From an uncultured bacterium (GTDB taxonomy: Bacteria; Hydrogenedentota; Hydrogenedentia; Hydrogenedentales; CAILVY01), in assembly GCA_937951485.1 (NCBI GenBank), contig CALEDJ010000059.1, positions 1 to 17,830 on the forward strand: a stretch of DNA of 17,830 bases, written 5' to 3'. Below, piece after piece: positions 2 to 14,699 of this stretch. Under the pieces are notes generated by a model that was not told the DNA's origin, made no database searches, and worked only from the letters and a program-made list of their open reading frames with translations. Both the position numbers and the translations under genes were made by a program. Each line of letters opens with the position of its first letter. The first letter of the stretch is position 1.

Positions 2-1822
2 CCGCCGGTGATCACGCTGCTGGGCGAGGAAGTGATAACGCTGGACTGCGGCGAAGAATATGTTGAGGCCGGCGCGCTGGCCGCCGACCTCTGCAGCGGT
101 GATCTGAGCGATGAAATTCGGATTGGCGGGGATGTGGTGGACACCTCCGCGCCCGGCGTCTTCACCATCACATACAATGTGACCGACGACGCGGGGCATG
201 CCGCGGAACCGGTCCTGCGCACGGTGATTGTTGAAGGACCTGCCTGCGAAGAAGGCGAACTGGAAGGTGAGGGCGAAGGCACCGAGGAAGGCGAACTGGA
301 AGGTGAGGGCGAAGGCACCGAGGAAGGCGAACCGGAAGGCGAGGGTGAAGGCGCCGAGGAAGGCGAACCGGAAGGTGAGGGCGAAGGCGAACCGCCATGC
401 GAACTCGAGGGGGTGACAATCCTCTCCCCCACCGGCGACATCAGGGTGCCGGGGGGCGCCACGGCGCGGGTCCATTTCCGCGCGGCGGTGGCCTTCGTGG
501 ACCCGTTGCGCTGCGGTGGCGGCGTGCTTGAGGTGACATATCTCATTGACGGCGTGGTGGTGGGCGTGTCGCGCGATGCCGCGCGCGGATTCCCCGCCGC
601 CGCGGAACTGCTTCCGGGCAACTACGTGCTGGACGTTGTCGCGGTTTTGATTGACACCGACGAAGCGGTGGCCGCCACGCAGTCACTGATGATTCAAATC
701 GGCACGGACAGCGACGGCAACGGGTACCTGGACAATCCCTTCGCCGAATTGCCGAACACCGGCGACACATGGCAGGCTACTGTGCCGGGCGGCGCTTATC
801 AGCGCACGGTGGGCATGCTCAGTTGGCACGGGCCGTGCAACGGCGATCCGGATGCGCCGATGACGCTGGTTATTGCGCAACCCGAATTCCCTGAACTCAC
901 TGTCAAGGCGGAAATCCCCTCCGGCCTGCTGGCCTGCGGAGAGCAGGGCATATTGATTATGGCGGGCGCCCGCGATTTTGCGAGCCTGCTGGGGCCGTCG
1001 CAGGCGCCGCTCTTGCCCAAGATACCCGAACGCATCATTCGCCGGGGATTCCCCTTTGAATTGAGTGTCATCGTCAGCGCCGATGGCGGCCAGACCTACG
1101 ACGAACTGGATAACGCGCTGCTTGCCCTCAATCCAGTCACCATCACGGCGGAAGAATTGACCTTTACCAGCGGGTTGATGCATTCGTTCATTTCGTATCC
1201 TACGCTGGTGGAGAGCGATCCTGTCAGCGGTATCCAGATCATTCTGGATGATGGCCCATGGTCCATGGATGCCGTCATTGACCCGCTCGCCATTGGTAAA
1301 CGCCTGACCGCACAGGTGGCCGCGTTGTCCCTGTTCGCACCGGTGGAAATGCCGGCTATCGGCCCCACCCTGCAGGTAACGCCCAGCCCGGACCGTGACT
1401 TCATTGTCGGTATCGCGGCGGTGAATCAATCGGTCACAAATTCCCTGACGGTGAAGAACATCGGCACGGGTACGCTCGCGGGCGCGGTCATGTTGCAGGA
1501 CTCCAGCGGCATGTTCAGTCTGGTGGGCGTATCCAACTACAACCTCACGCGTCACCAGACGGCGGAGATTCAGGTGCGTTTCGCCCCGATAAACGCAGGT
1601 GATTTCACCGCGATATTGACCTTTATCGGCGGCGAAAACTCGCCCATTACGGTCACTTTGCGCGGCGTCGGCGTGGACCCACAGAAGCGTATCGGCATAC
1701 TGGGTTGCGCTCCCGCCCCGGGCCGCGGAGGCGTTTCCTGGGCGGATTTTCTGGCCATCTTGGCCACGTTGGCGGTGTGCCTTGTTGCGGGCGGCGCATA
1801 TCGCCGCCGTGCGGCGCGGTAG
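2..1822 (+). CDS. Surface protein, 5'-partial: Ig-like domain, Glu-Gly repeats, ASH-like domain, C-terminal anchor
   Basis: The frame is open from base 2. The GTG at base 8 lies inside the first strand of an Ig-like domain of the DUF5011 type (PPVITLLG, then VDTSAPGVFTITYNVTDDAG), so the true start is upstream of the window. Residues below are counted from that GTG. Residues 1-76 are the Ig-like domain. Residues 82-129 are a Glu/Gly tandem-repeat linker. Residues 130-450 are a beta-rich region with a DSDGNG calcium-loop-like motif that I cannot assign. Residues about 455-557 resemble the ASPM-SPD-2-Hydin (choice-of-anchor) domain, with the pattern LTVKNIGTG and VRFAP. The C-terminus has Gly566-Cys567, a hydrophobic helix at about 576-597 and an Arg-rich end (YRRRAAR), the layout of MYXO-CTERM-like sorting signals. 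The protein is probably exported and held at the cell surface. No catalytic motif is visible. Confidence 0.85.
   Translation, partial: PPVITLLGEEVITLDCGEEYVEAGALAADLCSGDLSDEIRIGGDVVDTSAPGVFTITYNVTDDAGHAAEPVLRTVIVEGPACEEGELEGEGEGTEEGELEGEGEGTEEGEPEGEGEGAEEGEPEGEGEGEPPCELEGVTILSPTGDIRVPGGATARVHFRAAVAFVDPLRCGGGVLEVTYLIDGVVVGVSRDAARGFPAAAELLPGNYVLDVVAVLIDTDEAVAATQSLMIQIGTDSDGNGYLDNPFAELPNTGDTWQATVPGGAYQRTVGMLSWHGPCNGDPDAPMTLVIAQPEFPELTVKAEIPSGLLACGEQGILIMAGARDFASLLGPSQAPLLPKIPERIIRRGFPFELSVIVSADGGQTYDELDNALLALNPVTITAEELTFTSGLMHSFISYPTLVESDPVSGIQIILDDGPWSMDAVIDPLAIGKRLTAQVAALSLFAPVEMPAIGPTLQVTPSPDRDFIVGIAAVNQSVTNSLTVKNIGTGTLAGAVMLQDSSGMFSLVGVSNYNLTRHQTAEIQVRFAPINAGDFTAILTFIGGENSPITVTLRGVGVDPQKRIGILGCAPAPGRGGVSWADFLAILATLAVCLVAGGAYRRRAAR
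251..394 (+). repeat. 36-bp in-frame tandem repeat coding for Glu/Gly-rich 12-mers
   Basis: Four units begin at 251, 287, 323 and 359. The first two are identical and the last is incomplete. Each codes for a GELEGEGEGTEE-like 12-mer, with Leu to Pro and Thr to Ala changes in the later units. The result is a strongly acidic, flexible linker between the N-terminal Ig-like domain and the rest of the surface protein. Such repeats change copy number by slippage or recombination, so linker length may vary between strains. Confidence 0.95.
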
Positions 1823-3487: not shown

Positions 3488-4309
3488 ATGCGAATCGCTC
3501 TGGGGTTGATGACATGTCTGATAATGCTGTTGTGCCTCAGCAGCGCGAGGGCCAATGCGACCTTGCACAGCGCCGCCGCAATGTTCCTGGTGGCGCAAGT
3601 TGAAACGGGTCCTGGGTCGTACGCGGCAGGAGCCGTTTATCGAAACACCGATACCGCTGAAGATGAGGACGCAGAGGCTTTGCCGCCGCCCCCCCCGCGG
3701 AAACTGGAAGGCGACATCATCCGGCTCAAGAACGGCTCCGTCATTTCCGGCGTCCAGGTCATCCGGGTTACGCCGCGCGCGGTAGTGGCGCAGGTGCATC
3801 CCAATCTGGACCCGCTGGAGATTCCGCGACGGCAGGTCGAATCCATCGAATATGATGATAAAGACCCCCTGCGCGGCGACCAAACGGAAGGCGAAACAGC
3901 GCCACCACAGCCGGATATCTTCATCGGCGAGGAATTGGCTCCGGAATTTTATCGCAAACTAACGGCCCCGATTTCGCAAAATCCCATCATTTTTCAGAAT
4001 ATTGATTTTATCGCATTAATCGCCGATCTCGCAGAGCGGACAGCCGTCACCATTGAAATCAGCGACGAGGTGCGGGAAATCCCCCTGGAGGAGCGCATCA
4101 GGAGTTTTGAGATTCCGCCGAATACGTCTCTGCTTTCTTTCCTGCAGGACAGTTTCCTGAAGAGTTACGCGGCATTACGGGTGCTGTATCCCTACGACAA
4201 GGCCGTAGTCACCACAAAGGCCGCCGCGGAGAGAAATGCCACACATGTGGCTGCCCCTGCGTCTTCTGAGGCGAACGCTTTCCCCGTCCCCCCTCCCGCC
4301 ATGCCTTAG
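3488..4309 (+). CDS. Exported protein with STN-like segment, function unknown
   Basis: This is a 273-residue protein. Residues 1-22 are a Sec signal peptide with an Ala-Arg-Ala cleavage site. Residues 60-72 are an acidic then poly-Pro linker. Residues 72-122 form a small beta module (IIRLKNGSVISGVQV, then IPRRQVESIEYDD) of the kind found in bacterial envelope proteins that I cannot name. Residues about 157-243 resemble the STN domain of secretins and TonB-dependent receptors (FQNIDFIALIADLAERT, then IPLEERIRSFEIPPNTSL). The C-terminal 30 residues are Ala/Pro-rich and disordered-looking. It has no membrane helix after the signal peptide and no secretin channel domain, so it is probably a periplasmic accessory protein. 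It has its own promoter and is convergent with the zinc-ribbon gene. The STN match is by pattern only. Confidence 0.78.
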   Translation: MRIALGLMTCLIMLLCLSSARANATLHSAAAMFLVAQVETGPGSYAAGAVYRNTDTAEDEDAEALPPPPPRKLEGDIIRLKNGSVISGVQVIRVTPRAVVAQVHPNLDPLEIPRRQVESIEYDDKDPLRGDQTEGETAPPQPDIFIGEELAPEFYRKLTAPISQNPIIFQNIDFIALIADLAERTAVTIEISDEVREIPLEERIRSFEIPPNTSLLSFLQDSFLKSYAALRVLYPYDKAVVTTKAAAERNATHVAAPASSEANAFPVPPPAMP

Positions 4310-4386: not shown

Positions 4387-4872
4387 TCAACGATCGTCGT
4401 CCAATACGTCCCCCGAGAGGTCAATGGCCGCGTCCGTATCCAGAATCAGATCCTCAGACAATTCTTCGTCTTCGACATCCTCTTCCTCGTCCTCATCCCC
4501 TGCCACCACTTCTTCCTCTTCAACGACATCTACTGAGACAATATCCGGCTCACCCAACTTGATTTCCTCCTCCTCCTCCTCCGGTTCTTCCGATTCCAAA
4601 TCAAAGTCGCTGATTTCGCCAATCGGAATTCCCTCGCCCAAATCCTCATCGAAGGTTCCCGCGTCTGTCAATGATATTTCGTCATCAATGACCGATTTGG
4701 CGGGTTTGATGGGCCGCCGGGTCAATCGCGGGGCCGCAAGGCTTTGGCCCTCTTTCGCGCCCACCCGTATCAATTCTTCATCCGGGCACGAAGGACATTT
4801 GAATCCGAGTTTTTCCGCGCCCCAATCCACGAATCGCCGCTCGCATTTGGGGCAAAAATACTTCACTGCCAT
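4387..4872 (-). CDS. Zinc-ribbon protein with long acidic tail
   Basis: This is a 161-residue protein. Residues 1-30 form a Cys4 zinc ribbon: Cys7-x2-Cys10, 15 residues, Cys26-x2-Cys29 (YFCPKC, then FKCPSC). A short basic/proline stretch (RLTRRPIKPAK) follows. Residues 64-161 are dominated by Glu and Asp, with runs of up to six acidic residues, and are probably disordered. No signal peptide is seen, so it is cytoplasmic. Similar N-terminal ribbons occur in uncharacterised proteins. A nucleic-acid or protein-binding role is plausible but not shown. The acidic tail could mimic nucleic acid or bind a basic partner. The start ATG at 4872 follows an AGGGAGCGG-type ribosome binding site. Confidence 0.75.
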   Translation of the reverse strand: MAVKYFCPKCERRFVDWGAEKLGFKCPSCPDEELIRVGAKEGQSLAAPRLTRRPIKPAKSVIDDEISLTDAGTFDEDLGEGIPIGEISDFDLESEEPEEEEEEIKLGEPDIVSVDVVEEEEVVAGDEDEEEDVEDEELSEDLILDTDAAIDLSGDVLDDDR

Positions 4873-5486: not shown

Positions 5487-8400
5487 TCAGGGGTGGACGG
5501 CTGACACCGTCACTGACTGCTGTTGCCCATCCTCGGTGTTTACGATGAAGGTGTGCTCATATGTTCCGGAAGGCAGTCCGGAAAGATTCACCCGGACAAG
5601 AATTCCTTCACTCTCGCCAGGACCCAAATTGCCGGCAGCGCCGGCGACGCTCAGCCACAGCGGGAAAAGGTTGGTGTTGATGTTCCACTTGAGCAAGCCC
5701 TGTCCTGCATTGCTGATGTAGAGCGGCTGCTCAGCCGGCGACGAGGTAAACGAGAAGACGGTCTGGTTCAACTGCAGGATGGGACCAAGCACCTGGAACC
5801 ACACCTGGAGAGATTTACCGGGCAGCACGATGCCCAAGCCGGTAAGTTCGTAATTGAGCAGAACGGCGCCCATATAGAATCCCGGGGCAATGGTGCGGTC
5901 CACGGTGATGCGGAAGACATCCGGCGTCAACGTGGAACTGACAATACCTTCGAACGGCTCCACAATCAGGTATCGCGAAGCCGCATCAGGCATTGCCGAC
6001 CAATACAAGGCGACGCCGGTGGGCGGATGGCTGCCGCCAAGATTGAACACCGAAACATCCACATGGTCATTGGTTGTGCCCAAATCTACAATGAACGATT
6101 CCTTCGCAGTCATTGCGGGATTAGTGCCGATGTACGCCCACGGGAAGGACGGCGCCAGGAACGGCTGGTCTTCCACGACGATGGAATCGGGGCACACGAA
6201 GTATTTCGCGTTCGGGTCGGCGGAATAGACCGGCTCGATGACACCAAAGCGCACCCGGAAAGGACTCGCGGCCCCTTGGAATTGCAGGATCAGCAAATCG
6301 CCGAAATCGCCATACTGCAAAGGCCCGCTGGTGGAGGTGAAGGTATAGACCGGCGCCGCGCCGCTGCGCGTCCAGTTCGCGATGATGCCCCCCTCAAGCG
6401 CAGGCGCTTGTTGCACCGTCATCAATGGTGCCGGGAACCCTTCCACGCTAATCTGGAATGACAACCGTGAAATGTTGCGGGGGATATAATCCGCCCTGAC
6501 CACAACCTGTGCGGTGCCATCGGGGAGAATCCCCTCCGTCTTGAGGGATATCTGTCCCATACGCGGGTCGCCGGCGATGTCCATGAAATTGAGTTGGCTG
6601 ACTGCGAAACGCCCGGTAATCACACCTTGTTCCGGCAGACACAGGCCGTCCTGGTCGCTGGGATCATCGAAGGACACACGTCCTTCAACATTCACACTGT
6701 TTTCTTCATTCAGGGTGACATAGGAAAAGACCATCTGGGAACGGAAATCTTTGGGGATGGACTGGTCACAGGGGTCGTCCGGGTCCGTCTGAAACCAGCG
6801 CAGCAATTCCTCGGCAATGGGAATTCGGACAGGCGCACCGAAAGCGTCCACCGCGCCGCTGGGTTGTGTCTTTGTGGGATAATAGTGGCCGCCCGTGCGG
6901 GTGGTCAATCGAATCAGCGGATTCGCCAGCACATTGGTTCCCCAGCCTACGCAGAAGAGTTGAACACGCAGCGCTTCCAGGTAGTCCTGCACTTCGGAGA
7001 TTGTGCCTGGAGGCGTGGTCAGGCGTCCGTCCGTAACGCAAATCAGCGCCTTCACATCCACATCATCAAAGGATAGATACCCCTGATCCTGGGAAACCAA
7101 CACATCGGCGGCCTGTATGAGCGCCGGGAACAATTCGGTAGCGCCGTTATCCAGCACTGCAATGCTCCGCAAGCGATCCTGCAGCGCAACCTTATTATTG
7201 GTAAACAGCGGTTCGCCGTCCGCGCCGTCGATCATGCGCAACGGCTGGCCGCGTTCGCTGAAAACGCCCAGGCCGACACGGTAATTCATCGGCATTTCGT
7301 CAATCAAAGCGGAAATGGCGCGTTCATAAAGGGCTTGGATGGGGTCCGGCGCGCCGGCGATACTCAAATCCGCAACCTGCCGCGCCGCTTCCTGCATGCT
7401 GCCGGAATAGTCCAGCAGAATCAGCGCATTGCCGCGAAGGCGGTTGCCGGGCGTCATGAACTGAGTGGTTTCCGAAAGTTCCAAGGGGATATCTTTTTCA
7501 AAGACGGCCACCTGTTGCGCCAGTACCGGCAGCATGGAATCGGGTATCTGTATTGTCTGGTAACGCACATTGCGCATGAGCAGCACGAAGCGCACCAGCG
7601 ATGGTATCCGCAAGCGCGGGACCGGCGTTTCGATGGTCAGTTCCGCAGCCTGCACCGACACGTCCACTTCAAACACCGGAACGTCAGGGCGCGGAACAGG
7701 ATTCCCCCCCACCATGTCAAACGCGGAAATGACCAGTTTGGCCGAGGCGCCCACGCCCTCCAGCAACGAGCGATCCACAGCCACACTGATAATCTTCCAA
7801 TCCTTGATATCACCGACCACCCCCACACTGCTGCCTGTTTCCGGATACACCGACACCCAATCCTTTGTGGACGCAATCCGGAAATTGAGCAGCGTGTCCG
7901 GGTCCCCAAAATTGGCCACTTGAATCAGCGTCGTAGTTTGATTGACGCCGAAAGACAGCCGGGAAGGCACAGCCGCAATGACCACTTTCTTGGGCACCTG
8001 CACCTCGACAAGCAGAGGGATAGCGGGACGCTGCGGGTCGTTGGAGGATATCCGGAGAATGTGTTGCGCTCCCGTATAGTTCAGGCCATCCCGCGAAATG
8101 GTAACGGTCACCCGCTGTTGCCGCCCCGGATCAAGGCTTCCCTGTGCGGGCGTGATCGAACGCAACCAGGCCGGAGCGTCGCTCAAGTCAATGCGCCAGA
8201 ACAGCGTGCCGTTGCCTTCATTGCGGATGTTCAGCGACGCAGTTTCTTCGTTCACGTCAAAATTCAGGAAATCCACGCCGGCTATCGTAATGCCTTCGGC
8301 CTCGACCACAATGCGCGGAACCAACGGGATGCGCATCCGCACGGTAACCGTGATGGGCGTATTGGCATCGCCAGAGGCTTCCACCACGAACTGATGCTCA

Positions 8401-9929
8401 AAAGAAATCTGGCCCGGGGGCGCCAAATCCCTGTCCACACGCAAAGTGAGGGCATCGGTCTGCGCGCCGGTGACGCTGCCTGATGCCACTCCGGCGGCGT
8501 CCACCGGGGACAGAATCAGCCAGGCAGGAAAGGTGCCGGCGTCAATACGCCAGTTCACCGTGCCCTGGCCGTCATTCCATATTCCAATAAGTTCCTCCTT
8601 ACGGCTTTCGCCGAAATCTATCTGGTTCGGTTCCACGCGCAGCGTGGCCGGACGCGGTCGCGCCATCCGCACCACAACGCTTTTCTCGAGGCCATCCAGG
8701 TTGAATCGCAGGACGGCCTCATATGCGCCCGGATTGACCGCTGACGGTAACGCGGTAACCAGGACCGTGTCGCTTGCCGTTGCGCCCAGTATGCCGCCGG
8801 ATTTGTCTGTTTGAAGCCACGCCGCTGCCGCCGACGTAACCGTTACATTCCAGACAACCGGCTGCACGCTGAAATTTTCCAAGGTAATCGTCCGGCTGGC
8901 TTCCGCTGTAATGGTTCCAAAGTCAATCACGGACGGCGTCACGGTGACATTGGTCACCGTCAGGTATGCCAAGGCTTCCAGGGAATATCCCGAACCCGAC
9001 ACGACAACCTGAGCCTCGTAGGCGCCCGCGGCGAGGCCGGACGGATTCGCCGTGGCCAGAATGTCAATGTTGCCTGAGCCAGGTAAGACGGCGTTCGCCC
9101 TGTCGGTCGAAAGCCATGCCCCGCCCGCCACAGTGATGCTTATCGGCAGATCGCTGAAACCGCGGTTGGTCACCGTTATTCCGAGTGAAGTCGGGGTCAG
9201 CGGCGACCCGAAATCCAACACGACCGGTGACAGCGAAAAAGGCGGCACCTGCATCCGCACAATAACCGATGCGGACCCCGCGTTGGAGGTGATGCTCAAG
9301 GCGGTTTCGTATGTTCCTGCGGCCAGAACGCCGCGATTCGCCCTTAGAATCAACGGAACCGGCGCGCCGCCCCCCGCAATGCTGCCCGAAGTGGGAGACA
9401 CCTCCAGCCAGGGCACATCGGGAGGAAGTGATGCTTGCCACGTCAGCGGCAGCCCTCCGCCGTTGGAGAGATATAGAATATGTTCATCGCCATCGGCGCC
9501 GAAGTCCACCTCGGTTTCCGAAACCCCCAACAGCGCCGTGTCGGCGCGGGATGCACTCACGCGGATTACCTGGATTCCCCCATTGGCCGTAACATGAATC
9601 TCGCCCTGGGCCAATCCGTCAGGAAGCGTCTGCGGCGCCAGCCGAGCCTTGAAACCGTCCACGCCACGTTTAAGTGAACCGGTTACAGACACGCCGAAAT
9701 CATCGCCATCCAAGGCGGCCAATTCCAACCAGGCGACCTTTGTCACGGCTTCCCATGTCAGGGGGCCGCCGCCCTGATGCACAATTGCGAAACTTTTTAC
9801 AGGTTCATTTGCGGTAAAGGAGACGGCCAACGGCTGAACCAGAAAGCGGGGCATTGGGGGACACCCCGTCAGCGCCATCAACATCGCCGCGATTGCTACC
9901 GGCGCCATACACCGCCAATGTCGTGCCAT
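5487..9929 (-). CDS. Giant lipoprotein with tandem BACON/Ig-like domains and a VWA domain
   Basis: This is a 1480-residue protein. A lipoprotein signal peptide ends in the lipobox Leu20-Thr-Gly-Cys23. Residues about 29-760 hold seven Ig-like repeats resembling BACON/choice-of-anchor domains, recognised by recurring VDFG/LDFG/LSFG starts, a Trp-Leu core (PWLEVSPTSG, AWLRSITPAQGSL) and GLAAGAYEA-type turns. Residues about 775-1020 form a von Willebrand A domain with a complete metal site: Asp840-x-Ser842-x-Ser844, Thr931 and Asp967 (VTDGR). Residues about 1060-1250 are a module shared with the neighbouring lipoprotein. Two more Ig-like repeats end the protein. The start is fixed by AAAGGAG before ATG 9929. 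It is probably a surface protein that binds a ligand or matrix. It lies 48 bp downstream of its paralogue, so both are likely on one mRNA. Confidence 0.9.
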   Translation of the reverse strand: MARHWRCMAPVAIAAMLMALTGCPPMPRFLVQPLAVSFTANEPVKSFAIVHQGGGPLTWEAVTKVAWLELAALDGDDFGVSVTGSLKRGVDGFKARLAPQTLPDGLAQGEIHVTANGGIQVIRVSASRADTALLGVSETEVDFGADGDEHILYLSNGGGLPLTWQASLPPDVPWLEVSPTSGSIAGGGAPVPLILRANRGVLAAGTYETALSITSNAGSASVIVRMQVPPFSLSPVVLDFGSPLTPTSLGITVTNRGFSDLPISITVAGGAWLSTDRANAVLPGSGNIDILATANPSGLAAGAYEAQVVVSGSGYSLEALAYLTVTNVTVTPSVIDFGTITAEASRTITLENFSVQPVVWNVTVTSAAAAWLQTDKSGGILGATASDTVLVTALPSAVNPGAYEAVLRFNLDGLEKSVVVRMARPRPATLRVEPNQIDFGESRKEELIGIWNDGQGTVNWRIDAGTFPAWLILSPVDAAGVASGSVTGAQTDALTLRVDRDLAPPGQISFEHQFVVEASGDANTPITVTVRMRIPLVPRIVVEAEGITIAGVDFLNFDVNEETASLNIRNEGNGTLFWRIDLSDAPAWLRSITPAQGSLDPGRQQRVTVTISRDGLNYTGAQHILRISSNDPQRPAIPLLVEVQVPKKVVIAAVPSRLSFGVNQTTTLIQVANFGDPDTLLNFRIASTKDWVSVYPETGSSVGVVGDIKDWKIISVAVDRSLLEGVGASAKLVISAFDMVGGNPVPRPDVPVFEVDVSVQAAELTIETPVPRLRIPSLVRFVLLMRNVRYQTIQIPDSMLPVLAQQVAVFEKDIPLELSETTQFMTPGNRLRGNALILLDYSGSMQEAARQVADLSIAGAPDPIQALYERAISALIDEMPMNYRVGLGVFSERGQPLRMIDGADGEPLFTNNKVALQDRLRSIAVLDNGATELFPALIQAADVLVSQDQGYLSFDDVDVKALICVTDGRLTTPPGTISEVQDYLEALRVQLFCVGWGTNVLANPLIRLTTRTGGHYYPTKTQPSGAVDAFGAPVRIPIAEELLRWFQTDPDDPCDQSIPKDFRSQMVFSYVTLNEENSVNVEGRVSFDDPSDQDGLCLPEQGVITGRFAVSQLNFMDIAGDPRMGQISLKTEGILPDGTAQVVVRADYIPRNISRLSFQISVEGFPAPLMTVQQAPALEGGIIANWTRSGAAPVYTFTSTSGPLQYGDFGDLLILQFQGAASPFRVRFGVIEPVYSADPNAKYFVCPDSIVVEDQPFLAPSFPWAYIGTNPAMTAKESFIVDLGTTNDHVDVSVFNLGGSHPPTGVALYWSAMPDAASRYLIVEPFEGIVSSTLTPDVFRITVDRTIAPGFYMGAVLLNYELTGLGIVLPGKSLQVWFQVLGPILQLNQTVFSFTSSPAEQPLYISNAGQGLLKWNINTNLFPLWLSVAGAAGNLGPGESEGILVRVNLSGLPSGTYEHTFIVNTEDGQQQSVTVSAVHP

Positions 9930-9977
9930 ACCAAACTCCTTTGCCGATTGATCCGCCGCCGGCGGATTCCGGGCCGG

Positions 9978-12900
9978 TTACGGCGCACTGACAAGCACCG
10001 TCACCTGGATTTCATCATCGCCGAATGAATCAGTATTTACGCGAACCGTTCCGCGGACAAAGCCCGCAGGCAGGCCCGTTCTGTCAACATGCAGGTATAT
10101 CCGTTCCCGTTCGCCCGGCATCAGCACCGACTGCGGAACCAAAGCCGTTCCGTCACCATAACGGACCGCACTGATCCATGCCGGGAGCGAGGCCGTTTCG
10201 ATGCCCCAACGGAAGGTATCCAGGCGGTTGTTCCGTATGGTCAGTACGCCCACCGACTGGACCGCGCCGATTTCAAAGGGATTCGGCGTGACCAGGCGAC
10301 CGGGGAGATCGGCGCGGTCTGGATATGGATCATAGAAATCGGGCAGAGCGTCTTCATCCCGGTCCCACGCAAACGGCGCTTCCGGATCAATGTCGGGGAA
10401 TGCCATATCGTTGGCGCTTCGCGCCGGCGGGGCGGCATCCGGCGTCAGGGACACGGACAAGACGCGGCCGGGATTGGTCGGACCGCCCGGATACAGGAAG
10501 TACTTCGTGCGCGATGGCTGCGAAGGGGTGGCAGGCGATACATAGATCGTGTTGTCCACGCGCATTTCCACGAAGAATTCCGGATCGCGCCCCGTACCGG
10601 CAAACGCCGCGACATAATCCGCCAATCCCGTCATGCTGATCTTCAGCAGGTTGCCGAAGGAACCGTAGGGCAATGGATTGTCCTGCGCTGTGAGCAGATT
10701 GTAAATGCCGTCGCCTTCCTCCAGGAGACGCCATGTCGGCTGGAACGGATCATCGGTAATCAGCAGGCCGTCGGGAGCAAGTTCCACGATCATCTGCACG
10801 GCCGACAACGCCGATAGCGCCGCTGCCGGCGCATCATCCGGCGCACTGAGGAAGAACCGCATTCGGAACCGGGTCACATCCCTGGGTACATAGTCGGTGC
10901 GCACATAGACTTCCGCCCGCACCGCCTCATCGGGGTCGGTTTCGCCGATAACATGCTGGATGCCGGAGGTGCGCATGGCGATCTGGCCGGCCAATACATC
11001 GCCGGGATAGAAAACGCCGTCTTCCTCGAAGAATCCCGTGATATCGGCGCCGTCGGGCTGCGCATACTCGACGCGAATTGAGTATCGTCCGCCCGTCTGG
11101 CGGGGGGTTACATAAGTCAACACCAGTTGATGCTGCAATTCCGCCCAAATCCGGCCCGGTTCATCCCACAATTCCAAAGTCAACGCTTCGGGCAACGCAT
11201 TGTCCGCCCCGACATCCATGCGGATGGAGGCCGCGCCTTCCCCATTGTCCGAAGCAATGCGGATGATTCCGAGCACTGCCGAGTCGGGCGAAACCATGGC
11301 CGAATTCACCTGAACCGTCACTAAAGTTGCGCCGCCCGGCGCCGCCCCTCCCGAAGCGGGCGATACACTTGTTATCCACGGCGCGCCGTCTTCCACAACG
11401 GCCGTCCACAGCAGCGTCGTCTCGCCGACGTTCGCCACCCGGAACCGCACCGTATTCGGGCCGCCGTCCGCCGCTTCCAGCGCAAGGCCCTTTTCATTCC
11501 CCAGAAGACGCGTGAGGTTACGAACATTTCCCGCAGTGAACAGATGTCCGCCAGTCTCACTCGCCAAAACCAGCAAGTCTTTGTTGTTCACCGGGCCGCC
11601 CGCGCTGTATCCCACCGGATACAGCCGCACCCGCGTGTCTTTTGCCGCATCTCTGACAGTGTCGGCGGTGGCCACGGAGGCATTGTCCTGACCATCCGTG
11701 ATAAAGACGATCGCGCGAATATCCGCATCATCGAAGGGAAGCATATCCTCGGCATCATCGGCGACAATCCGGGCAATGGCGTCGTTCAGGGCGTCGTAAA
11801 TGGTGGAAACGCCAAACTGCGCGTCCGGCAGCGTGAAGCGGTTCAGGGCGTCTTTCAGGGCCTCGCGGTCCGTGGTGAGCGCATGAATCAGGCGATTGGG
11901 CTGTTGCCGATCGTTATAGTACATCAATCCCACACGGTAGCCCGGAGGCAGATCATCAAGGAAATGCAGCGCCGCCGCCTTGACCTGCGCCACCGCCTCC
12001 CCCGGTGCGAGCGGATTCACGGCATCGCGTGTGCCCGCGTAGTACATGCTGCCGGTGTAGTCCAGCATCAGCATGAGATTGACGCGGAGATTCTCCGGTC
12101 CGGTGACGTACAGGCTTGTTTCATCCAAATCCAGCGGGATGCCTTCTTCGGTCACTGTAAACCGGATTCGATTCAGGTCTTCCTGCGTGCGTGTGGGAAT
12201 CGCCCGGCCCAGCGTATCGCGCAACAGGAATACAAATCGCATTACAAAAGGCGGACGGCTTCGGTTGATGGTCCCTTCCACCGTCAAAGGCATGCGTTCC
12301 ACCCGAATTTTGATGGTTTTCTTTTCCACCGCGCCAAGCACGTCCTCGAAATTCCGGTCCACTGCTTCCACGGTGATCTCATGAAACTCAACGTCTTGGG
12401 TGAGTTTGGATCGGTCAATGGTCACAGTCACTGCCACGCCGTCAATCAGAACATTGGCCAGTTCCGGATGGAAGAAATCCTGGGCATTGCCGTCTTCTCC
12501 GTTGGCGCCACCCTGCGATGGGCTGATGTCGGCAATCAAGGCGTCCTCCGATCCTTGGCCCGCGTGTGAAATTCGGAAATAGAGCCGGGAATCGCGCGGG
12601 CCGATGTTGGCAATCCAGAAGGTTTTTTGAATCTCCTCCCGCCCGAAATCCAACACGTCAACCGGCACAATCGTTGGGCGCGCGATGTCCGGCTGCGGGG
12701 GTTCTGAAACGGCGATCTTGGGCAATGACATCAGTTCCACCACTACCGGCACCACCAGAAAACTGCCGCCCGATTGCACCATCAGATCATATTTGCCGCT
12801 GCCCACCTCCACCCCCGTCGGGTCCGTCACCCGCACCAGGACTTCGCTCAGTTGCCCCGCGCCGGTGCTCCCGCTTCCAGGGGAAATACTGATTGCCGGG

Positions 12901-13784
12901 GAGATGCCCGGATTGATGCGTGATACCAGCGAAATGGTCCAGGATTTGGTCACCGTGCCCGCGTTGGCGATGGTCAGTTTCGAGGCAGCCTGCTCCCCCC
13001 CGCCCCCGGCCAGCGATGCGGGGTCCATGTAGAGTGTCAATACGGCCGGTTGGACGATCAACCCTTCGAGCGCCGCGCCGAATCGAATGCGCAGCACGGC
13101 GCTCCCCGCGACGGAACGAACCACCAAATTGAAATCGGAACGTCCCGCGCCCCATTGCACGCTTACGGCGGTGGCCACCTGCGGGGCAGTTGCGCCCGGA
13201 TTGGGCGTCACCTGGATATCCGCAGGAAGGGAAGTTGCATCCGCCGGGTTCAGTGATGTCCCCAGGTAAAGCACTTCCCAATCAACGGCGGTCGCGCCGG
13301 TGTTGCGCACGGTGAACGCCGCCTGCGTCGCGGTGGGGGCCAGGGAGAAGTCGGTGGGGCTTACTGCCATGGTGGCGGCCACCTGCATGGATATCGGCAC
13401 TACCGTCGCCCCGCCGTTCGAGAGAATCCTGATGCCCGCATTGCTGTACAGCCCCGAGGCCAACCCCGCTCGCGACACACGAATTTGCAATTGACTGACC
13501 AGCAGCCGGGTCTCCCCCGATGCGGGTCCGTCAATGGAAAGCCAGGGAACATCCTGCGCTTCCCACGGCGAATTGACATCCGCCCGGAACACTTCCTCCG
13601 CCGTCCAGCGTAGTGCGCCGGAACCTGCGTTGATAATCGTGATGCGGTCGGCGGTCTTGGTCGTATCAAAACTGATCGCTTGCGGCGTTACCTTCAGGGA
13701 AGGTGGATTGGGACAGCCCGCAAGCGTCAACGTCATTAGTGCCGGCAGTACCAGCCATGCCAGGCGCGGCCGATTTGACTTCAT
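9978..13784 (-). CDS. Giant lipoprotein with Ig-like and VWA domains, paralogue of the next gene
   Basis: This is a 1268-residue protein from ATG 13784; a GTG two codons upstream is possible. The signal peptide ends in the lipobox Leu-Ala-Gly-Cys24. Residues about 28-500 hold four or five Ig-like repeats. Residues about 515-760 are a VWA domain with intact Asp575-x-Thr-x-Ser579 (DYTGS), Thr661 and Asp697 (ITDGQDN). The lead-in resembles VWFA-related proteins (FTVTEEGIPLDLDET). One Ig-like repeat follows directly at about 765-860 (PWITSVSPASGG). Residues about 883-1100 form the module shared with the paralogue. A short Asp-rich thrombospondin-type-3-like stretch (DRDEDALPDFYD) lies near 1141-1152, then a final Ig-like repeat. 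It is a predicted calcium- or magnesium-dependent surface binding protein. No enzyme motif is seen. Confidence 0.9.
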   Translation of the reverse strand: MKSNRPRLAWLVLPALMTLTLAGCPNPPSLKVTPQAISFDTTKTADRITIINAGSGALRWTAEEVFRADVNSPWEAQDVPWLSIDGPASGETRLLVSQLQIRVSRAGLASGLYSNAGIRILSNGGATVVPISMQVAATMAVSPTDFSLAPTATQAAFTVRNTGATAVDWEVLYLGTSLNPADATSLPADIQVTPNPGATAPQVATAVSVQWGAGRSDFNLVVRSVAGSAVLRIRFGAALEGLIVQPAVLTLYMDPASLAGGGGEQAASKLTIANAGTVTKSWTISLVSRINPGISPAISISPGSGSTGAGQLSEVLVRVTDPTGVEVGSGKYDLMVQSGGSFLVVPVVVELMSLPKIAVSEPPQPDIARPTIVPVDVLDFGREEIQKTFWIANIGPRDSRLYFRISHAGQGSEDALIADISPSQGGANGEDGNAQDFFHPELANVLIDGVAVTVTIDRSKLTQDVEFHEITVEAVDRNFEDVLGAVEKKTIKIRVERMPLTVEGTINRSRPPFVMRFVFLLRDTLGRAIPTRTQEDLNRIRFTVTEEGIPLDLDETSLYVTGPENLRVNLMLMLDYTGSMYYAGTRDAVNPLAPGEAVAQVKAAALHFLDDLPPGYRVGLMYYNDRQQPNRLIHALTTDREALKDALNRFTLPDAQFGVSTIYDALNDAIARIVADDAEDMLPFDDADIRAIVFITDGQDNASVATADTVRDAAKDTRVRLYPVGYSAGGPVNNKDLLVLASETGGHLFTAGNVRNLTRLLGNEKGLALEAADGGPNTVRFRVANVGETTLLWTAVVEDGAPWITSVSPASGGAAPGGATLVTVQVNSAMVSPDSAVLGIIRIASDNGEGAASIRMDVGADNALPEALTLELWDEPGRIWAELQHQLVLTYVTPRQTGGRYSIRVEYAQPDGADITGFFEEDGVFYPGDVLAGQIAMRTSGIQHVIGETDPDEAVRAEVYVRTDYVPRDVTRFRMRFFLSAPDDAPAAALSALSAVQMIVELAPDGLLITDDPFQPTWRLLEEGDGIYNLLTAQDNPLPYGSFGNLLKISMTGLADYVAAFAGTGRDPEFFVEMRVDNTIYVSPATPSQPSRTKYFLYPGGPTNPGRVLSVSLTPDAAPPARSANDMAFPDIDPEAPFAWDRDEDALPDFYDPYPDRADLPGRLVTPNPFEIGAVQSVGVLTIRNNRLDTFRWGIETASLPAWISAVRYGDGTALVPQSVLMPGERERIYLHVDRTGLPAGFVRGTVRVNTDSFGDDEIQVTVLVSAP

Positions 13785-13970: not shown

Positions 13971-14573
13971 TCACGCGCCGTCCGATTCAGCAAATATAAC
14001 CCTTACCCCCGCGTCAACCAGTATTTGGTAAACCCCCTGAAAGTCCTCATAAAAGGTCCCATCGCTTCGTATGGTCCATTCCGGCGAAAGCGTCAAAATG
14101 GTGCCGGCGCCGATGCCATCGTTTTGCGCATTGGCCACCAGCGCATCCCACTCCCGAATGTCATTGTGAGGACCATGCAAGTCGAGCCACTCCAATAGGA
14201 ACAAGCCGGACAAGGCGGAAATATTGGTGATGTGATTCTGGCTCAGGTCCAGCCAACGCAGGTTGCCAAGCCCCGCAAGCGGAGTAATGGACTGAATCTG
14301 GTTGGACCGCAGGTTCAGGATAAGCAGCGAACGACAATGTTCTATGCCCTGAAGGCTGCGTATATCCAGCCCCGCCGCCTGGATTTCCGTCACCCGGAGC
14401 AGGTCCCTTTGGGTTAGAAAACCGAACGGTTTGCGCAAAGAAGCCCGAATGGCCGATTCCAGCCCCGCGTCGGGTATGAACACAACCCCAAGCAGCGCGC
14501 AGCCGTTCCATCCGAACAGCATGCACCCCACGAGTCCAAGCAGCACAATCTTGCGGGCAAGACGTTTCCTCAT
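13971..14573 (-). CDS. Leucine-rich-repeat lipoprotein
   Basis: This is a 200-residue protein from ATG 14573. An AAAGGTGG ribosome binding site precedes it, and the in-frame extension to 14639 begins with TTG and adds no signal. The N-terminus is basic (MRKRLARK), then hydrophobic, ending in Gly24-Cys25, with a second candidate Leu-Val-Gly-Cys17. Residues about 30-80 match the capping segment common before bacterial LRRs (DAGLESAIRASL, then LTQRDLLRVTEI). Internalin-type repeats follow (LLILNLRSNQIQSI, LRWLDLSQNHITNI, LEWLDLHG), ending near residue 140. The tail is unassigned. LRRs bind proteins, so a surface adhesion or assembly role is inferred. It lies 186 bp upstream of the first VWA lipoprotein on the same strand and is probably the first gene of that unit. 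Confidence 0.82.
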   Translation of the reverse strand: MRKRLARKIVLLGLVGCMLFGWNGCALLGVVFIPDAGLESAIRASLRKPFGFLTQRDLLRVTEIQAAGLDIRSLQGIEHCRSLLILNLRSNQIQSITPLAGLGNLRWLDLSQNHITNISALSGLFLLEWLDLHGPHNDIREWDALVANAQNDGIGAGTILTLSPEWTIRSDGTFYEDFQGVYQILVDAGVRVIFAESDGA

Positions 14574-14670: not shown

Positions 14671-14699
14671 ATTATGCGCTATTCGCATGTTTTTGTCAA
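14671..14699 (-). promoter_or_regulatory. Sigma-70 promoter for the LRR lipoprotein and probably the lipoprotein cluster
   Basis: On the minus strand TTGACA (14694-14699) and CATAAT (14671-14676) are separated by exactly 17 nt. The -35 is perfect and the -10 has five of six consensus bases. Transcription would start near 14664, about 90 nt before ATG 14573. No comparable promoter was found in the 186 bp before the first VWA gene, which supports co-transcription. Confidence 0.75.

Follow-up and report, generated by a model that had tools for sequence, protein, structure and literature searches.

Two very large genes lie side by side in the genome of an uncultured bacterium of the phylum Hydrogenedentota, a lineage known mostly from environmental genomes. 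Both encode lipoproteins in which a VWA domain is followed by a stretch of about 200 residues that an initial sequence-only reading of the locus could not assign to any named domain. This raises the question of what the shared stretch is and what two such proteins might do together. The window, i.e., the whole stretch of DNA analyzed here, comprises 17,830 nucleotides and originates from a 4.5 Mb metagenome-assembled genome (MAG). Its closest named relatives likewise all belong to MAGs of Candidatus Hydrogenedentota / Hydrogenedentes, and literature searches, as far as the library used reaches, returned no description of these twin proteins.

Twin lipoproteins and the extent of their shared region

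The region is filled by two large minus-strand genes, with twin A starting 48 bases downstream of twin B (Table 1). Both products begin with a signal peptide and a lipobox (LTGC in twin A, LAGC in twin B) and would be expected to be lipidated and located at the cell surface. Pfam recognizes BACON and related Ig-like domains in both proteins as well as the VWA domain of twin A. BACON_2 (PF19190) exceeds its cut-off of 25 in each case, with 160 bits over seven stretches in twin A and 40.5 bits over three in twin B. Twin B alone has an additional BACON domain that separates its VWA from the shared region. In the most distant family (f5), most twin B genes do without it, with a residue gap of 4-8 versus about 110. 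Elsewhere in the window, a partial ORF (Table 1) encodes a surface Ig-like domain (PF16403) and an EGEGEGE-rich linker, followed at the C-terminus by a hydrophobic stretch and RRRAAR that together look like a sorting tail.

Table 1. Positions of features in the window.
Feature	Position	Strand	Detail or basis
Partial ORF	2-1822	+	PF16403
Gene, product without confident Pfam family	3488-4309	+	
Gene, product without confident Pfam family	4387-4872	-	weak zinc-ribbon match
Twin A (P0001), lipoprotein of 1480 aa	5487-9929	-	lipobox LTGC; order: signal peptide/lipobox, BACON array, VWA, shared region, C-terminal Ig-like/BACON
Predicted cohesin-fold domain, twin A (residues about 1120-1255)	6165-6572	-	AF2 models, fold searches
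Post-VWA beta segment, twin A (residues ~1058-1120)	6570-6758	-	..SQMVFSYVTLNEE..; pLDDT alone versus with VWA
VWA, twin A	6879-7421	-	MIDAS D-S-S..T..D intact
Twin B (P0002), lipoprotein of 1268 aa	9978-13784	-	lipobox LAGC; order: BACON-like array, VWA, inserted BACON, shared region, C-terminal BACON-like
Homologous domain, twin B (residues about 929-1100)	10485-11000	-	alignment with twin A
Post-VWA segment, twin B	11001-11159	-	..HQLVLTYVTP..; alignment
Inserted BACON, twin B only	11286-11468	-	Pfam, P0002 773-833
VWA, twin B	11535-12077	-	MIDAS D-T-S..S/T..D intact
Leucine-rich repeat (LRR) lipoprotein of 200 aa, opening the LRR - twin B - twin A cluster	13971-14573	-	
Sigma-70-like promoter TTGACA-17-CATAAT upstream of cluster	14671-14699	-	11/12 consensus matches; consensus only

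The two VWA domains are recognized by different models. That of twin A scores 28 bits against a Pfam cut-off of 23.8, whereas Pfam VWA does not list twin B, whose domain matches VWA families of NCBIfam. Among these, the acidobacterial VWA family TIGR03436 aligns with twin B at E=4.4e-10 and 39.6 bits, which is below its curated cut-off of 81.25 bits, and twin A is not listed for it in the NCBIfam search. Proteins of the TIGR03436 type have a VWA domain with flanking beta elements. The likeness to them lies in this arrangement, whereas the 324 positions of the model would leave no room for a cohesin-like domain after the VWA.

Whole-protein BLASTP aligned twin A with twin B at 2e-37 across the VWA half, and a separate segment (6e-13) covered the post-VWA region and the C-terminus. 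The sequence-only reading had listed matching blocks well beyond the VWA domain. All eight motifs it quoted occur verbatim and in the same order, and the post-VWA regions alone (P0001 1040-1262 and P0002 862-1100) align at E=2e-10. Both proteins are members of the family profile, which matches them at E values of about 1e-68 to 1e-81, and judged by these alignments their similarity is far beyond chance. A third family member, a short lipoprotein of 581 aa, is encoded in the same genome on contig C53 (about 18732-20477; L040:6733-8478) and consists of a signal peptide, VWA, and the shared region, after which it ends. It matches the family profile, in which it is itself included, at 4.5e-39 and other family members in BLASTP at up to 2e-18. 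The presence of the region in this short protein shows it to be a unit, as opposed to a chance feature of two recent copies. C-group relatives stand in tandem in some genomes (L100, L101, L103).

Pfam places nothing on the shared region of the twins. Among 42 relatives, neither Pfam nor NCBIfam gave a credible family for it, each weak match being confined to one member, and a sequence search against solved structures gave no match to the domain. The initial suspicion that no named family covers the region is thereby borne out, and the relatives form a distinct set of VWA-linked proteins. The block originally marked is indeed shared by both twins, but only about two thirds of it belongs to the true domain, as it consists of a post-VWA segment of ~60 residues and a separate domain of ~135 residues. 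The segment carries SQMVFSYVTL in twin A and the equivalent HQLVLTYVTP in twin B. When the region was modeled alone with AF2, its first 80 residues were weak (block means mostly 49-67 pLDDT), model residues 85-190 reached block means of mostly 85-97, and later loops were weaker (58 and 78). A model of VWA plus region (mean pLDDT 85, pTM 0.85) raised the post-VWA segment to mostly 86-91, and its VWA part matches VWA domains with fold Z up to 22. Since the segment is confident only when modeled with the VWA, we assign it to the VWA module. The separate domain has a conserved motif set of its own (DxRxGQ / RADYxPRN / GG..W / PLxYGxFGxL / KYFxxP). In twin B it extends to ~170 residues versus ~135 in twin A, with insertions of ~15 residues each between strands 3/4 and strands 7/8. 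The conserved lysine of KYF is unlikely to form an intramolecular isopeptide bond, as many twin B proteins differ at this position in the alignment.

Predicted fold and relation to cohesins

The AF2 model of the domain is a beta-sandwich with nine main strands. In the VIA comparison, the first 44 rows were cohesins or cohesin-like modules with Z from 10.7 to 7.8, aligning 115-130 of about 132 residues at an rmsd of about 2.6-3.8. The best of them (Z 10.7) superposed 117-125 residues at 2.7-2.8, and the best non-cohesin was a CLIPPER domain at Z 7.7. Foldseek also returned mostly cohesins as its best rows, with a lowest E value of 2.2e-3 at probability 1.00, and the order of the nine strands agrees with that of cohesins. 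The predicted model is thus a nine-stranded sandwich that superposes on cohesin structures, and for the domain as modeled a cohesin-like fold is well supported. The domain goes unrecognized at the sequence level, but a new fold is not supported: a match to a known domain had been named beforehand as a refutation, and the modeled domain matches cohesins.

Sequence comparison gave a different picture. PF00963, the cohesin family, matched none of 42 members even at E<=1, and neither P0001 nor P0002 at E<=10. A profile of 93 domain sequences scored 0.3% in hhalign against 25 PF00963 cohesins of the same phylum, equal to shuffled columns, whereas two distant cohesin subgroups matched each other at 97.8% as a positive control. 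With no signal although the control worked, we reject a profile link. Because a fold match is found yet no profile link, we describe the domain as cohesin-like by fold and not as a PF00963 member by sequence; since the profiles do not connect the two, common ancestry with cohesins is unproven. With PF00963 cohesins (cellulosomal types I-III and non-cellulosomal representatives, e.g., 2xdh from Archaeoglobus fulgidus), the domain shares the predicted nine-stranded sandwich and an extracytoplasmic, multidomain context. Unlike them, it lacks sequence or profile similarity to the family, is restricted to VWA proteins, has its own motif set, and occurs in copy numbers that are not tied to dockerins.

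The TMEM132 family offers a precedent for a diverged cohesin homologue that occurs in adhesion proteins for which no dockerin is detected. These animal proteins have a cohesin-homologous domain that was linked to cohesins by HHpred at E<5e-3 (PMC6030884). The likeness comprises a divergent cohesin-fold domain, an adhesion-type multidomain protein, and the lack of a detectable dockerin partner; TMEM132 differs in being eukaryotic and in having BIG domains and no VWA (PMC6030884).

Distribution, duplication, and gene cluster

The family profile matches 52 of 68 Hydrogenedentota genomes, which together contain about 150 copies of the domain. The scan of genome contigs was seeded with eight closer rows of the shared-region family. 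Across 386 genomes reaching beyond the phylum, one match came from elsewhere, and in the phylum of that match 5 of 132 genomes carry the domain, four of them in one family. These out-of-phylum copies (L098 of G363, L118-L122) are small proteins of VWA plus cohesin-like domain. A VWA precedes the domain in every distinct copy with a gene readable upstream, and copies without a visible VWA are truncated where the retrieved sequence or the contig ends. Viral contigs encoded no relative of the shared region, and we reject a viral origin.

Gene duplication had been the simplest explanation offered for the twins, and a tree built from 80 sequences of VWA plus domain, with twin rows labeled by gene order and the root not inferred, supports it while rejecting a recent tandem event. 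Copies from the upstream position fall into one clade and those from the downstream position into another (SH-aLRT 99 for each), and the tree shows a single change of state between them. Two further clades comprise the short C group (SH-aLRT 100) and the out-of-phylum copies (93). As the upstream and downstream clades are each single and span families of the phylum, the duplication predates the sampled phylum diversity, and on this tree the twins are products of one ancient event.

Gene order at the locus is conserved. The LRR gene directly precedes the pair, in the order LRR - twin B - twin A on the same strand, in 18 of 18 loci with enough upstream sequence. These are the window and 17 loci of relatives that belong to several families; one more locus (L109) is not counted, as its sequence lacks the upstream side. 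In one of the 18 (L048), the profile search shows partial degeneration of the downstream gene. Conservation of the three-gene cluster is well supported. Many relatives also have two further genes (3488-4309 and 4387-4872 in the window) next to the cluster, with an orientation that varies. A gene for a sigma-54 activator further upstream is a neighbor in some relatives only, and sigma-54 control of the cluster was rejected, as -24/-12 matches equal chance and the site directly upstream is sigma-70-like.

Conserved loops and proposed role

The MIDAS is intact in all 58 twin rows, and metal binding by the twin VWA domains is expected from it; among C-group rows, 10 of 17 show erosion. In the domain itself, the 20 most conserved positions are found where strand 1 begins, where strand 2 ends, and within or next to loops 2-3, 4-5, 6-7, and 8-9. 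Mean JSD is 0.46 for even loops plus N-terminus versus 0.24 for odd loops (p=2e-5). From strand alternation, the conserved loops should sit at one pole of the domain, which could be either a binding site or a contact with the VWA module.

We propose, at a probability of roughly 55%, that the shared region combines the second half of the VWA module with a divergent cohesin-fold domain and that the three proteins of the cluster form an extracytoplasmic adhesion or docking complex. In such a complex, lipid anchors would hold the LRR protein and both twins to a membrane, with BACON and Ig-like domains as the stalk. The VWA domain with its intact MIDAS would make a metal-dependent contact, and the cohesin-like head would bind a protein partner via its one conserved pole. 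A canonical type-I dockerin is an improbable candidate for this partner. The mutual contact of the three gene products, the binding of a partner by the head, and the function of the complex are inferred. A common fold alone shows no function, and the sequence search identified no binding partner of the cohesin-like head.

The conserved pole can also be understood differently. The domain might extend the VWA module structurally, as a spacer of cohesin shape that lies against the VWA, sets its position, and binds no ligand itself. We regard this as rather unlikely, although it accommodates several of the observations: the domain follows a VWA in every testable copy, the combined model of VWA and region is confident (pTM 0.85), and the conserved pole lies on the side of the N-terminal linker to the VWA module. 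As the pole adjoins this module, it may be an internal interface instead of a ligand site. A fixed packing is, however, not required in all members, since twin B has a BACON domain between VWA and shared region, and many C-group proteins retain the domain despite lost MIDAS residues.

An improbable alternative is that the domain is a genuine cohesin, strongly diverged in sequence, whose ligands are exoproteins with dockerins, with the twins serving as surface anchors of a cellulosome-like system. Besides the predicted fold, the genomic setting would suit this view, as canonical cohesins occur in 58 and dockerins in 56 of the 68 Hydrogenedentota genomes, and two genomes, G019 and G033, have at least 63 and at least 47 dockerin matches among the 80 candidates scored in each. 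Genomes with the domain are also somewhat likelier to carry dockerins (Fisher p=0.027, the genomes not being independent). Against it stand the missing profile link to cohesins and the copy numbers: across the 68 genomes, with species not phylogenetically independent and MAGs incomplete, dockerin numbers correlate with those of canonical cohesins (rho 0.54, p 2e-6) and show no correlation with copies of the cohesin-like domain (rho 0.04). Six genomes with the domain, including that of the window, have no dockerin at E<=1e-3, and the domain is absent from several genomes rich in dockerins (G066, G058, G044, G050). The window genome does contain sub-threshold dockerin-like matches. As a separate observation, G019 and G033 have 6 and 2 canonical cohesins, respectively, next to their many dockerins, which suggests large dockerin-tagged exoproteomes.

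Still more doubtful is a generic beta-sandwich likeness of an independent Ig-like or jelly-roll family, which would explain the absent sequence signal and the moderate Foldseek E values (best 2.2e-3) but conflicts with the agreement in nine-strand order and with cohesins holding the first 44 VIA rows (Z 7.8-10.7) above the best non-cohesin (7.7).

Returning to the adhesion or docking complex, a more specific form of it can be offered as a tentative suggestion that we consider unlikely as it stands: a phylum-wide, dockerin-independent docking system of an LRR protein and two VWA-cohesin-like lipoproteins, in which the cohesin fold would have been refitted to a new partner at the pole formed by loops 2-3, 4-5, 6-7, and 8-9. 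Binding would then take place at this pole and not at the sheet face that cellulosomal cohesins use. To our knowledge, no ligand is known for many of the cohesin-like domains that occur without dockerins. Here, the fixed gene order singles out the LRR lipoprotein and the twin itself as partner candidates and thereby makes the ligand question testable. A domain family that sequence databases had missed is now defined, together with a predicted fold and a conserved three-gene cluster.
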